NCBI GenBank assembly: GCA_028717525.1
Contig: JAQUNT010000014.1
Coordinates: 1 to 13,732 of the forward strand
DNA: 13,732 bases
Direction of reading: 5' to 3'
Source: Elusimicrobiota bacterium
Lineage (GTDB): Bacteria > Elusimicrobiota > Elusimicrobia > UBA1565 > UBA9628
Shown: piece after piece, positions 2,786 to 7,548 of the stretch
Position numbering within the stretch: the first letter of the stretch is position 1
How the letters are laid out: each line of letters opens with the position of its first letter
Program-made: the position numbers and the translations under genes
Notes under the pieces: model-generated
What the model was told of the DNA's origin: nothing
Database searches by the model: none
What the model saw: only the letters and a program-made list of their open reading frames with translations

Positions 2786-3202
2786 GTGTCCCGCTCCCGC
2801 ACCCCGCTCGCGGATCAGGTCCTCGCGGCGGCGGTCATCGTTATCTTCGGCACGATCCTCATGGCCGGCCTGTTCGAGAATCCGTTGTCATCCCTGCTGA
2901 ACCGGAGCGGGGAGCAAAGCCTGCGGTCCGGGACCACGGCCGCCTATTCGGGGACCGCGGCGGTGGACCTGCAGCTGGCGCACAAGGCCATCGCGGGCGG
3001 GGACCTGGCGGGCGGCGAGGGCCGCGTGGGCCGGGCCCAGGATAAGCTCTACGCGCCCCAGCTGGGGGGCCGGGCCGCGTCCGAGGTGAGCGGGGACATG
3101 AAGGGCCTGGAAGAGCGCTACGGCAAGGAGTTCAAGGCGATCCGCCGCAAGCGCTCGCTCGAGCGCCTGGGCCGGGAAGGCGCGGAGACGGTCAAGCCTT
3201 AG
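2786..3202 (+). CDS. Small membrane-anchored hypothetical protein
   Basis: This 138-aa protein opens with GTG 2786, three bases after the stop of the preceding gene; no upstream in-frame ATG exists before that stop, and translation is probably coupled. Residues 9-31 form one hydrophobic transmembrane helix (LAAAVIVIFGTILMAGLF), followed by an Ala/Gly-rich helical region and a basic C-terminus (KAIRRKRSLERLGREG). I recognise no family; it looks like a single-pass protein with its charged C-terminal part outside the bilayer. Its last five codons and TAG stop (3185-3202) are part of the 25-bp sequence repeated at 3989-4013, so the gene end sits exactly at the left border of the toxin-antitoxin insertion. 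The alternative, that this is a shadow ORF, is unlikely given its position, the TM helix and consistent codon bias. Confidence 0.65.
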   Translation: MSRSRTPLADQVLAAAVIVIFGTILMAGLFENPLSSLLNRSGEQSLRSGTTAAYSGTAAVDLQLAHKAIAGGDLAGGEGRVGRAQDKLYAPQLGGRAASEVSGDMKGLEERYGKEFKAIRRKRSLERLGREGAETVKP

Positions 3203-3209
3203 GCCGCCG
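3185..3209. repeat. 25-bp perfect direct repeat, left copy
   Basis: The sequence from 3185 (GAGACGGTCAAG...) to 3209 (...GGCCGCCG) is identical over 25 bases to 3989-4013 and in the same orientation; the bases on either side differ. This copy encodes the last five residues (ETVKP) and TAG stop of the 138-aa plus-strand gene. The centre holds a small near-palindrome, GCCT-T-AGGC (3196-3204). Confidence 0.95.
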
Positions 3210-3262
3210 CGCACCCCCAAGTGGATGGAACAATCCGGTCTCTCACTCGTATGAATAGTGGG

Positions 3263-3298
3263 GTAACGGCACTTGACAGAGTGTGACTTATACGTTAC
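3263..3298. promoter_or_regulatory. Candidate HigA operator (inverted repeat around the promoter)
   Basis: GTAACG at 3263-3268 and its reverse complement CGTTAC at 3293-3298 flank the -35 box and run into the -10 box. A second small inverted repeat, CACT at 3270-3273 and AGTG at 3280-3283, covers the -35 itself. HigA-type antitoxins usually repress their own operon by binding such palindromes. The arms are short, so this is a suggestion only. Confidence 0.35.
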
Positions 3299-3301
3299 TC
3301 T
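3273..3301 (+). promoter_or_regulatory. Sigma70-like promoter of the toxin-antitoxin module
   Basis: A perfect TTGACA -35 box (3273-3278) is followed after 17 bp by TACTCT (3296-3301, three of six matches to TATAAT at the key T, A and T positions). Transcription would begin near 3308, just before the ATG at 3316, and this excludes the GTG at 3283 as the toxin start. Confidence 0.6.
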
Positions 3302-3315
3302 ATGGGGGATGGGAA

Positions 3316-3630
3316 ATGGACCTGCGTCGCTATCAGACGGCCGAAGGATGCGTCCCGTATTCGGACTGGATACGAGCCCTGGACAGCGGGACCGCCGGCC
3401 GAATCTCGGCATACGTGGATCGGATGAAGTACGGGAACTTCGGAAGATCGGAACCGGTCGGCCGGGGTGTCTCCGAACTGAAGATCGATTTCGGTCCGGG
3501 CTACAGAGTCTACTACCTTCAGGACGGAGGCACAGTGGTCGTGCTGCTCTGCGGGGGAGACAAGAGTTCTCAACAGGGCGACATTCGGCTGGCGCAGGAG
3601 TTCTCTGAGGATTACTGGAGGAGAAGATGA
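3316..3630 (+). CDS. higB: HigB-type toxin (RelE/ParE superfamily, phage Gp49-like)
   Basis: This 104-aa protein belongs to the phage-derived Gp49-like / addiction-module killer family. Family signatures are the N-terminal RRYQTAEG...PYSDWI (residues 4-19), GVSELKIDFGPGYRVYY (51-67) and LLCGGDKSSQQGDI (77-90). Members are RelE-fold ribosome-dependent mRNA interferases neutralised by the partner antitoxin. The start at ATG 3316 is preferred: GGGGGATGGGAA lies directly before it and the promoter's predicted transcription start is downstream of the alternative GTG at 3283. The stop overlaps the antitoxin ATG by four bases (ATGA), so the pair is translationally coupled, with the toxin first as in the HigBA class. 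Codon usage is less G/C-biased than in the flanking genes, which fits horizontal acquisition. The superfamily call is firm; the activity is inferred. Confidence 0.9.
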   Translation: MDLRRYQTAEGCVPYSDWIRALDSGTAGRISAYVDRMKYGNFGRSEPVGRGVSELKIDFGPGYRVYYLQDGGTVVVLLCGGDKSSQQGDIRLAQEFSEDYWRRR

Positions 3631-3953
3631 AGAAGAGGGCCCCCGGCGTTTCCCACGAGAAGGAGCAACTTCGGGAGTTCCGGGCCGATCCCAAGCTGGC
3701 CGCTGCATATCTCAATTCGGCCATCCAAGTCGCCTTCGACGAGAACGAACCGGAATTGCTGCTCATCGCGCTTGCCGCCGTTGCGAGGGCCTACGGCATG
3801 ACGCATGTGGCCAAAGAGGCAGACCTCAAGCGCGAAAGCCTCCATCGCATGCTCTCCAAGCGCGGCAATCCGGAGTGGAACAGCATGTTCCGGGTGCTCA
3901 AAGCTCTGCACCTGCGCCCCAGGCTGGAAAGCACGGGACCGGCCATAGCCTGA
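3627..3953 (+). CDS. higA: HigA-type antitoxin (helix-turn-helix)
   Basis: This 108-aa protein matches the 'probable addiction module antidote' HigA family. An N-terminal toxin-contact region (about 15-45, LREFRADPKLAAAYLNSA) is followed by a lambda-repressor-like helix-turn-helix at about 50-95, with the family hallmarks ARAYGMTHVAKEA, LKRESLHRML and GNPEWNSMFRVLKAL. It should bind HigB and repress the promoter at 3273-3301. ATG 3627 overlaps the toxin stop (ATGA), and AGGAGAAG just upstream within higB is a good ribosome site. Both genes lie between the 25-bp direct repeats, so the module is complete and self-contained. After the stop there is a 5-bp hairpin (3954-3967) without a T tract. 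Confidence 0.9.
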   Translation: MKKRAPGVSHEKEQLREFRADPKLAAAYLNSAIQVAFDENEPELLLIALAAVARAYGMTHVAKEADLKRESLHRMLSKRGNPEWNSMFRVLKALHLRPRLESTGPAIA

Positions 3954-3988
3954 GACGCGACGGCGTCCCGGCCGTGCCGATCCCGGCC

Positions 3989-4013
3989 GAGACGGTCAAG
4001 CCTTAGGCCGCCG
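3989..4013. repeat. 25-bp perfect direct repeat, right copy
   Basis: Identical to 3185-3209. This copy contains the TAA stop (minus strand, 4003-4005) and the last two to three codons of the methyltransferase gene. It also retains a silent copy of the ETVKP-stop coding end of the plus-strand 138-aa gene, 804 bp from the real one. Confidence 0.95.
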
Positions 4014-4755
4014 GGCTCTTTCGGGCCAGGACCATGATCTCGAACTCGTCGAGCTTGAGGGTCCTTCTGCCCCAGTCGCCGGCCGTGCCGCCCCCGATGT
4101 GGAGGACCTGCAGGTCCGCCATGCGGAAGAGCAAGACGAGTTCCGTGGGGAGGAAGCCGCGCTCGCGCAGGGCCAGGGCCGGCAGGCCTTTGCGCGGCGG
4201 GAAGCGAGAGCTCTCCACCAGAGTCAGGGGGTCGAAGCGGCCTTTGGCCACGTCCTGGTCGCTGTGCATGCGCAGCAAGCGCGCCCCGTTGAGCACGGTG
4301 AAGAGCGCCTTGGCCCCGGGCTTGAGGCTGCGCGCTATGTTGCGCAGTATGGCGAGGGGCTGCGCGATGGGGTCTTGGCCGAGGCCGAGGAGTCCGAAGG
4401 AGCCTTCGCAGAGGCAGATGGCGGCGTCGAAGCGGCGGGGAAAGGAGAAGCGGGCCGCGTCGCGGCGCAGCCAGCGCACCTGCACGCCAGCAGCCTTGGC
4501 CCGGGCCCGGGCCTGGGCGAGCATTCCGGAGGATAGGTCCAGGCCGGTCACAGCAAAGCCGCGCGTGGCAAGCTCCACGGAGTGGCGGCCGGTGCCGCAG
4601 CCGATATCAAGGATCTTCCGGCCTGGGCGCAGGCCTAGCTCCTTGACGATGAATGGTATCTCGCGCGCGGTGTTCTTGGTGAAGATGTTGTCATCGTAGA
4701 CCGGCGCGTGGCCGTCGAAGAAGCGCTCCCAGTTGGTCTTGGCCTGTTTCGTCAT
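4003..4755 (-). CDS. Class I SAM-dependent methyltransferase
   Basis: This 250-aa protein has the SAM-binding motif I ILDIGCGTGRHSVELA (residues about 47-62), the acidic motif II residue in TGLDLS (about 71-76), and a typical post-core IARSLKPGAKALFTV strand. It resembles ubiquinone/menaquinone-type small-molecule methyltransferases of the Methyltransf_11/25 class; the substrate cannot be read from the sequence. I place the start at ATG 4755 (MTKQAKTNWERFF), which overlaps the stop of the upstream 58-aa ORF (TGATG); an in-frame ATG at 4824 would run through that whole ORF and gives an unlikely N-terminus. It is the last gene of a three-gene minus-strand operon. Its stop lies in the right 25-bp repeat, and transcription past it would run antisense into the toxin-antitoxin module. 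Confidence 0.88.
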   Translation of the reverse strand: MTKQAKTNWERFFDGHAPVYDDNIFTKNTAREIPFIVKELGLRPGRKILDIGCGTGRHSVELATRGFAVTGLDLSSGMLAQARARAKAAGVQVRWLRRDAARFSFPRRFDAAICLCEGSFGLLGLGQDPIAQPLAILRNIARSLKPGAKALFTVLNGARLLRMHSDQDVAKGRFDPLTLVESSRFPPRKGLPALALRERGFLPTELVLLFRMADLQVLHIGGGTAGDWGRRTLKLDEFEIMVLARKSPAA

Positions 4756-4931
4756 CAGCTTGGCTCCACGATGTAGGACAGGATCCGCGGCCATTGGCCT
4801 TTCTTCCCGTTGTCCAAGGTCCATATCTGGCGCGCGCGGAACGAGACGAAGCTCTTGATGTCGTTCTCGGTGAATCGGTTCTCCTTATGCAGACGGACCG
4901 CAGCGATGTAGTCACGATTCTCATTGCTCAC
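4755..4931 (-). CDS. 58-aa hypothetical protein, GTG start, coupled on both sides
   Basis: A short frame opens with GTG at 4931 and ends with TGA at 4755-4757. The product begins MSNENRDYIAAVRLHK and ends RILSYIVEPS. It is hydrophilic, mixed alpha/beta in character, with many Lys, Arg, Asn and Trp residues rather than the Ala/Gly/Arg bias of shadow frames. It overlaps the end of the membrane-protein gene by 11 bp and its stop overlaps the methyltransferase ATG by one base. These close overlaps, and the otherwise unexplained gap between the two genes, are the evidence that it is real. I recognise no family. It may be a small partner of the membrane protein or methyltransferase. Confidence 0.65.
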   Translation of the reverse strand: MSNENRDYIAAVRLHKENRFTENDIKSFVSFRARQIWTLDNGKKGQWPRILSYIVEPS

Positions 4932-6729: not shown

Positions 6730-7548
6730 ATGAACAGGACCCTCGCCGCCGCGCTGCTCGCCGCCGGCCTCTGCGCCTGCGCGGACCTGCCGGAGAGCGC
6801 CTCTCCCGCCGCGGGCATCGTGCGGTCCCCCTTCGCGCCGCTCGACCCCGGCTCCTACGAGCAGGTCAGCCTGCACTTCAAGGTCTTCGCCTACGGCGGC
6901 GACAACGCGCGCGCCGTCTCCAGCCAGGCCGAGGGCTTCTACACCACCATCATGACGGACACCAACCTCTTCTCCTTCATGCCCTCCGGCCTCTACGAGA
7001 TCGTGGTCTACGCCAGCCACGAGGAGTACGTGCGCAAGACCGGCCAGCCGGACTGGTCCGGCGGGGTCGCCTACGGCAACTGCATCTGCAGCTACAACGG
7101 GCCCCAGCTCCTGCAGACCATCGCGCACGAGATGACCCACCTCATCTTCATCGAGTACATGGGACGGCCGCGCCGCGACCTGCTCTGGCTCAACGAGGGG
7201 CTGGCGGTCTACGAGCAGGCCAAGGCCGCCAGCGGCGGGCGCGCGCCCGCCGACCTTTTCGCGGGCGTGCGCCCGCGCCTGCGTTCCCAGCCCCTGACCA
7301 TGGACGAGATCCTCGGCTTCGTGCCGCTGGGCGAACGGGCCGGCGCCGACCAGAAGGTCGCTCTGTGGTACGCCGAGTGCGCCAGCCTGGTCCAGTTCAT
7401 GCTCGAGCGCGGGGGCCGCATCGGCTTCTCCCAGCTGCTGCCCGCCCTCAGGGACGGCAAAGGCTTCGACGAGGCCATCCGCTCGGCCTACATCGGGGTC
7501 TGGGGCGACCTGGCCGGGCTCTACCGCGCCTGGCAGGCCGCACTCTAG
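6730..7548 (+). CDS. Lipoprotein zinc metallopeptidase (gluzincin, peptidase MA-like)
   Basis: This 272-aa protein opens at ATG 6730 with a lipoprotein signal peptide (MNRTLAAALLAAGL) and a lipobox LCAC with lipidated Cys17. Metal-binding signature HEMTH is at 133-137 and the third ligand is Glu156 in WLNEGLAVYEQ, 18 residues after the second His, the classical gluzincin spacing. Family knowledge: peptidase_MA-like proteins are membrane-associated zinc proteases of mostly unknown substrate. The preceding half (GGDNARAVSSQAEGFYTTI...EIVVYASHEEY) matches the usual N-terminal part of such proteins. It is 14 bp after the deiminase gene, so the pair is likely co-transcribed. Its TAG stop overlaps by two bases the TAG of the convergent FecR gene (CTAG at 7545-7548), leaving no room for a terminator between them. 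Confidence 0.88.
   Translation: MNRTLAAALLAAGLCACADLPESASPAAGIVRSPFAPLDPGSYEQVSLHFKVFAYGGDNARAVSSQAEGFYTTIMTDTNLFSFMPSGLYEIVVYASHEEYVRKTGQPDWSGGVAYGNCICSYNGPQLLQTIAHEMTHLIFIEYMGRPRRDLLWLNEGLAVYEQAKAASGGRAPADLFAGVRPRLRSQPLTMDEILGFVPLGERAGADQKVALWYAECASLVQFMLERGGRIGFSQLLPALRDGKGFDEAIRSAYIGVWGDLAGLYRAWQAAL

Follow-up and report, generated by a model that had tools for sequence, protein, structure and literature searches.

A toxin-antitoxin module between 25-bp direct repeats at a convergent gene junction of an Elusimicrobiota bacterium

In a contig of an Elusimicrobiota bacterium (JAQUNT010000014.1, 13,732 nucleotides, which we will call the window) we have found a toxin-antitoxin (TA) module placed between two identical copies of a 25-bp direct repeat, GAGACGGTCAAGCCTTAGGCCGCCG, in which two convergent genes have their ends. 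Our preferred reading, to which we give a probability of about one half, is that a foreign TA module entered the tail-to-tail junction by a non-homologous event, an illegitimate capture, in which 25 bp of the target were duplicated. We favour an insertion with target duplication because the module has a lower GC content, because TA homologs are found in other contexts and, above all, because there is a second locus with the same anatomy, L179, in a member of the Desulfobulbaceae. The first-pass annotation of this DNA had already proposed that an insertion at the convergent junction duplicated its target, and the same three observations support it. The features of the locus are collected in Table 1.

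Table 1. Features of the repeat-flanked module and of its two neighbours (positions in the window).
Feature	Position	Strand	Evidence or remark
138-aa neighbour gene; stop TAG (3200-3202) within left repeat copy	2786..3202	+	ORF list, homologs
Left copy of the 25-bp repeat	3185..3209	.	Sequence, repeat search, genome search
Putative inserted segment, 779 bp	3210..3988	.	GC drop; no terminal inverted repeats found
Motif GGAAC-N15-TCGTATGA	3227..3254	+	Only match in its own genome
Candidate -35 box TTGACA, with weak -10 TACTCT (3296-3301)	3273..3278	+	Read from sequence
Imperfect palindrome GTGACTTATACGTTAC, candidate operator	3283..3298	.	Counterpart in L049
Predicted toxin, RelE/ParE superfamily, TIGR02683 (upstrm_HI1419)	3316..3630	+	E=5.8e-31; PF05973 Gp49
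Predicted antitoxin, TIGR02684/PF21716 (dnstrm_HI1420)	3627..3953	+	TIGR02684 E=2.4e-18; PF21716 E=4.8e-15
Right copy of the 25-bp repeat	3989..4013	.	Sequence, repeat search, genome search
Class I SAM methyltransferase neighbour gene; stop within right repeat copy	4003..4755	-	ORF list, Pfam search

The repeat search gives a spacing of 804 between the copies at 3185-3209 and 3989-4013. Together with the sequence itself it bears out the earlier description of 25 identical bases in direct orientation with unlike flanks; when the copies are compared over 31 nt, 29 positions match. In its own genome (3.02 Mb in 562 contigs, 79% complete) the 25-mer is found in exactly two places, with up to three mismatches permitted, and the reversed 25-mer, used as a control, has no match there. 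It is also absent from viral_contigs and, besides its own locus, from the collected TA loci. The length of the repeat is far above chance expectation: the longest word common to the 400-bp flanks has 25 bases, while 300 first-order Markov simulations gave a maximum of 16 and a mean of 9.2. On 14 other contigs of the same genome, two of them shortened to 20 kb, none of 1039 overlapping pseudo-modules has an exact repeat of at least 20 bp in a range of 350 bp; in a range of 600 bp there are 7 in 1003, none of the seven with unlike flanks.

The insert is made up of the TA module with 106 bp on its 5' side and 35 bp on its 3' side. The ORFs identified between the repeat copies are, as had been stated, the two TA genes, with no transposase among them. 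Its lower GC content was also seen correctly: in 200-bp windows it is 0.585-0.61 in the module and 0.65-0.77 outside, about ten points of difference.

The ORF ends confirm that the 138-aa gene terminates within the left copy and that the methyltransferase has its stop codon in the right one. In the reconstructed junction the two convergent stops overlap by two bases, TTAG. The ORF list contains another pair of overlapping convergent ends at 7545-7548, which had been noted too. The 138-aa gene has no Pfam match. Its homologs in genomes G001 (62%) and G006 (58%) have ..LGREGAE(T/V) in common with it as far as the point where the repeat begins and then diverge; they adjoin different genes, and in G006 the gene that follows resembles by eye the deiminase-like gene at about 5.5-6.7 kb of the window. 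Sequence comparison supports the view that the left half of the repeat is native to the target. For the right half this is not demonstrable, because the alignment with the methyltransferase homolog of G039 (36-39%) ends four residues before the end of the gene.

The neighbourhood of the junction appears to be variable among relatives, and none of the relatives compared has the same junction, so that an empty site is not readable here. Relatives do carry TA copies without repeats, but those found lie elsewhere and not at the position of the window locus. Empty sites were also sought in relatives of G085 and G098, and none was seen at the places inspected; part of this search supplied the gene ends with which L179 is compared below.

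The module is predicted to be a type II TA system of the HI1419/HI1420 type. Both proteins pass the curated cut-offs (106.7 against 62.85 bits for the toxin with TIGR02683, 66.1 against 53.7 for the antitoxin with TIGR02684), the toxin comes first and the start of the antitoxin gene overlaps the toxin stop as ATGA. No difference from this type was seen in the proteins; the unusual part is the insertion anatomy. The first-pass annotation had called the module HigB/HigA-type, which holds for gene order and rough class but goes no further: by family the toxin belongs to Gp49/TIGR02683, the antitoxin to PF21716/TIGR02684. TA homologs elsewhere in the order sit in different contexts. PADLOC matched neither protein, and a profile search of the PDB gave nothing with the toxin and one designed protein with the antitoxin. 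The DNA of the window has three short matches in a plasmid search, and its antitoxin has no match in phages. Plasmids commonly carry antitoxins of this family, with 729 records, all below 60% identity to the antitoxin of locus L159 (see below). Two plasmid TA pairs of the TIGR02683/TIGR02684 family were traced in E. coli genomes by megablast, and every place found, 13 for one pair and 3 for the other, is on a plasmid; therefore they provide no usable polymorphic chromosomal site.

A promoter in the insert had been proposed and is only in part apparent: TTGACA is present at 3273-3278, but the sigma-70 signal is weak and a scan with the sigma-70 consensus gave no promoter. Some TA homologs have TATACT at the place of the weak TACTCT. 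The palindrome GTGACTTATACGTTAC is possibly an operator for autoregulation; the homolog L049 has GTAACCTATAGGTTAT at the equivalent place. Further upstream, the motif at 3227..3254 resembles an ECF-sigma promoter. Its general form, GGAAC-N14..17-CGTAY, is found 5' of 10 of the 93 TA loci grouped as Elusimicrobiota and of none of the 98 others, among which records titled only 'bacterium' were placed. Genome G031 has a near-identical 27-bp form of this motif in 15 copies with up to three mismatches, one of them in L072 (9621-9647, reverse complement), and some copies precede TA and other accessory genes. When up to five mismatches are allowed, 14 of the 16 copies fetched have an ORF of at least 50 aa on the same strand, starting at most 400 bp downstream.

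A scan of genome_contigs with the antitoxin profile gave 73 loci, of which 69 were examined, and further loci were fetched besides. After deduplication the survey set comprises 191 TA loci; those with short flanks or short matches were dropped beforehand. Only exact repeats were scored, the control windows overlap, and the locus in the window is counted among the 191 even though it prompted the test. The geometry was widened equally for loci and controls and takes in L179, whose truncated toxin put the edge of the module beyond the repeat. In a range of 350 bp an exact direct repeat of at least 20 bp is found in 11 of the 191 TA loci and in 6 of 1167 control windows taken from those loci (Fisher p about 2e-6, which can be no more than indicative as the controls overlap). 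With unlike flanks there remain five loci (the one in the window, L179, L159, L072 and L187), against 3 of 1167 controls and 0 of 1039 windows of the own contigs (p about 1e-4); one of these three controls is in L188, where the repeat is the TA's own motif. At 600 bp the figures are 15 of 191 against 7 of 787. With unlike flanks they are 6 of 191, L365 being added, against 4 of 787, and three of these four are one identical pair.

Once L072 and L187 are set aside (see below), two clean cases remain besides the locus in the window, L179 and L159, or three with L365. The repeat lengths are 22 bp in L159, 25 bp in the window, 29 bp in L179 and 50 bp in L365. When the repeats of L179, L159 and L365 were sought in 371 loci, each was found only in its own locus or in another copy of it. 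The first-pass annotation had suggested a search for other repeat-flanked TA cassettes at convergent gene ends: L179 is such a case. The 25-bp core of the window locus is present nowhere else in the genome to which the window belongs.

Other candidates were set aside. The 27-bp repeat around the TA of L072 is the dispersed motif of G031 (15 copies at up to three mismatches), and L188 has the same motif. In L308, L189, L165 and L314 the similarity extends past the exact repeat, while the repeat of L187 (30 bp, unlike flanks) is palindromic and looks dispersed by eye. In L250, from genome G133, a TA module of the TIGR02683/TIGR02684 family is duplicated in tandem with a period of 1111 bp. In L125, on contig C7 of the own genome, the 25-bp exact repeat belongs to a longer imperfect repeat of about 60 bp (719-780 and 2177-2240, extent by eye) which has no Rfam match at the gathering threshold. 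L213, L190, L184 and L113 have longer gene-end duplications. In L113, from genome G024, a TA of the same family and a longer ORF are bounded by a small gene on one side and by an incomplete second copy of this gene's 3' end on the other (4409-4762 and 6849-7073); L184 and L190 resemble it by eye, with diverged copies. Looser settings give repeats also at, for example, L141, L149, L155, L160, L164, L185, L192, L199, L209 and L114.

L179 is the anatomical twin of the locus in the window, the sole one in the 191 loci, and comparison with its relatives supports that its repeat is a target duplication. Its TA module is flanked by a 29-bp repeat at a convergent junction where the stops overlap by two bases, TTAA. 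The left copy ends a release-factor-like gene and the right copy a ParE-like gene, both named by eye, the first from its GGQ motif. BLAST matches of the release-factor-like gene in L290 and L291 reach into the left copy by 14 bases, and the bases that remain align with the gene ends of the same two loci after a three-base shift. For the ParE-like gene the match in L288 starts within the right copy, 2 bases ahead of the stop, and the match in L287 starts only at the last three bases of this copy, with the stop and the last codons aligning gap-free; the gene ends of L287 and L288 agree with L179 in 9 of 13 positions each, counted by eye. Since both copies carry both parts, the best explanation is that a pre-existing junction was duplicated by the insertion. 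The toxin of L179 is without about 139 bp relative to L289, and this TA copy is probably inactive as a result of the truncation. The match to the one close relative of the module begins in the promoter region and ends 42 bp beyond the antitoxin stop.

L159 and L365 are weaker parallels. The 22-bp repeat of L159 includes the stop of a transketolase-like gene (named by eye), and the left flank has an identity of 0.56, near the set limit of 0.6. This repeat is not demonstrably native, because the transketolase tails differ in the relatives displayed. The inserts, 1066 bp in L159 and 1320 bp in L365, clearly exceed the module; the former also holds an additional small gene, together with a stretch which is seen near contig ends of a relative. 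All five DNA matches to the L159 module, in four relatives, break off precisely at the antitoxin stop; on the left one of them reaches the promoter region.

According to the capture reading a foreign module of 779 bp, with promoter, toxin and antitoxin, would have been inserted into an existing tail-to-tail junction. The non-homologous event would have duplicated 25 bp of the target and rebuilt both neighbour genes, by a long-staggered break with fill-in or by template switching that resumed upstream of its point of departure, and no transposase or integrase would have acted on defined ends. Survivorship would do the rest: the junction has zero spare bases, so other outcomes would damage a gene and the duplicating one would be kept, while the addictive property of the module would favour its retention. 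Illegitimate capture is favoured because there are no inverted repeats, the ends of the modules differ in the few copies compared, the repeat lengths vary and Ku is lacking in the genus. In the ends of the four inserts no inverted repeats were found (0.67-0.97 of the shuffles reach the observed score), and an ungapped test of the 40-bp ends of the insert in the window gave an inverted-repeat score of 5 against a shuffled mean of 5.3. Ku is present in 3 of the 57 genomes searched but in none of the seven of the genus, including the own one (79% complete), and classical end joining (NHEJ) is therefore unlikely. A prediction of capture with survivorship is that repeats need not flank a lone TA module where the intergenic space is ample. 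The rarity of repeats is in line with this, though age also erodes them. Several points speak against capture: no empty site was seen, the right half of the repeat is not demonstrably native, L179 is the only twin with good support, lengths of 22, 25 and 29 bp may be near enough for one enzyme with a loose stagger, and the position of both the window locus and L179 on overlapping stops could indicate a target preference rather than survivorship.

Such an enzyme, a dedicated transposase or nuclease absent from the locus and inserting TA modules in trans with duplications of 22-29 bp, is somewhat unlikely in our opinion. Three clean cases at 22, 25 and 29 bp speak for it, as does an Acinetobacter plasmid on which an ISNCY transposase gene lies near a TA pair of the TIGR02683/TIGR02684 family. 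A possible model is the group of IS1202-family elements with long duplications: their description gives target duplications of 16-28 bp in bacteria (PMC10132070), similar in length to ours, but it also gives inverted repeats for this family, whereas our insert has neither a transposase nor terminal inverted repeats, and the ends of all four inserts are without the latter. Moreover, the extent of module homology varies between families, the repeat of L365 has 50 bp, and 176 of the 191 TA loci are without an exact repeat of at least 20 bp inside 600 bp, although age could erase repeats. An undescribed process, common to phyla as distant as Elusimicrobiota and Desulfobacterota, might have TA pairs of the TIGR02683/TIGR02684 family as its cargo, target tail-to-tail junctions with overlapping stops, duplicate about 25 bp and leave the neighbours unharmed; we consider this unlikely. 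A literature search that covered titles, the beginnings of abstracts and passages of PMC10132070, PMC5481352 and PMC6957337, with subscription journals mostly outside its scope, gave no description of such a footprint.

It is quite improbable that the 25 bp are an att-like core and that a tyrosine recombinase integrated the module as a circle at gene 3' ends. Where tyrosine-integrase elements have their att sites at gene 3' ends, a direct repeat restores the end of the gene. The exact repeat in the window does the same, and the longer, partly diverged gene-3'-end duplications of L213, L184, L190 and L113 surround TA-bearing segments. However, no integrase or shared core was found, the insert is tiny with the TA pair as its only genes, the 25-mer is limited to its two places in the genome with none in viral_contigs, and the repeats of L179 and L159 are unrelated. 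The first-pass annotation had noted that there is no recombinase, and no recombinase family is found among 15 proteins scanned in the window. The agents it proposed, a new type of cassette or an integrase working in trans at an att-like core, find no support: the 25-mer is present nowhere else in its own genome, in viral_contigs or in the collected loci, the other repeats have different sequences and lengths (22, 29 and 50 bp), and no terminal inverted repeats were found.

Two other systems carry TA pairs. The dif modules of Acinetobacter plasmids are small, include TA pairs and are bounded by sites of about 28 bp. In contrast, our repeat consists of gene ends, and its region has at best 14 mismatches in 22 positions to a dif arm pattern of the Acinetobacter type. 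In the Acinetobacter plasmid mentioned above (L371) the TA has the ISNCY transposase gene on one side and an IS3-like element on the other; the plasmid has one dif-like site, at 1552, with 5 mismatches to the dif pattern. TA pairs are also common among integron gene cassettes, but the 25-mer has no GTT on either strand, hence no GTTRRRY core.

That the insert is the remnant of a larger element stripped down to its TA module is very improbable. TA modules are often found in genomic islands, and PMC5481352 reports the partial loss of an island in which the TA was kept; yet besides the module the insert has only 106 bp upstream and 35 bp downstream of it, and both the window locus and L179 would then have had to decay to about one and the same minimal unit. 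An assembly artefact of the metagenome bin is hardly credible: the assembly does have 562 contigs and is 79% complete, but the repeat is interior to the contig, 25 bp is far below the usual read lengths and L179 has the same anatomy in an unrelated assembly.

To our knowledge, the entry of solitary TA modules into chromosomes, with no transposon or integrase, is largely unexplained. Two insertions with the same footprint, one of them checked against relatives, suggest that a lone module can enter a convergent junction with zero gap and do no harm. They also give a signature which can be searched, a lone module at a tail-to-tail junction enclosed by a direct repeat that is short and unique, suited to collections of isolates in which empty sites can be found.
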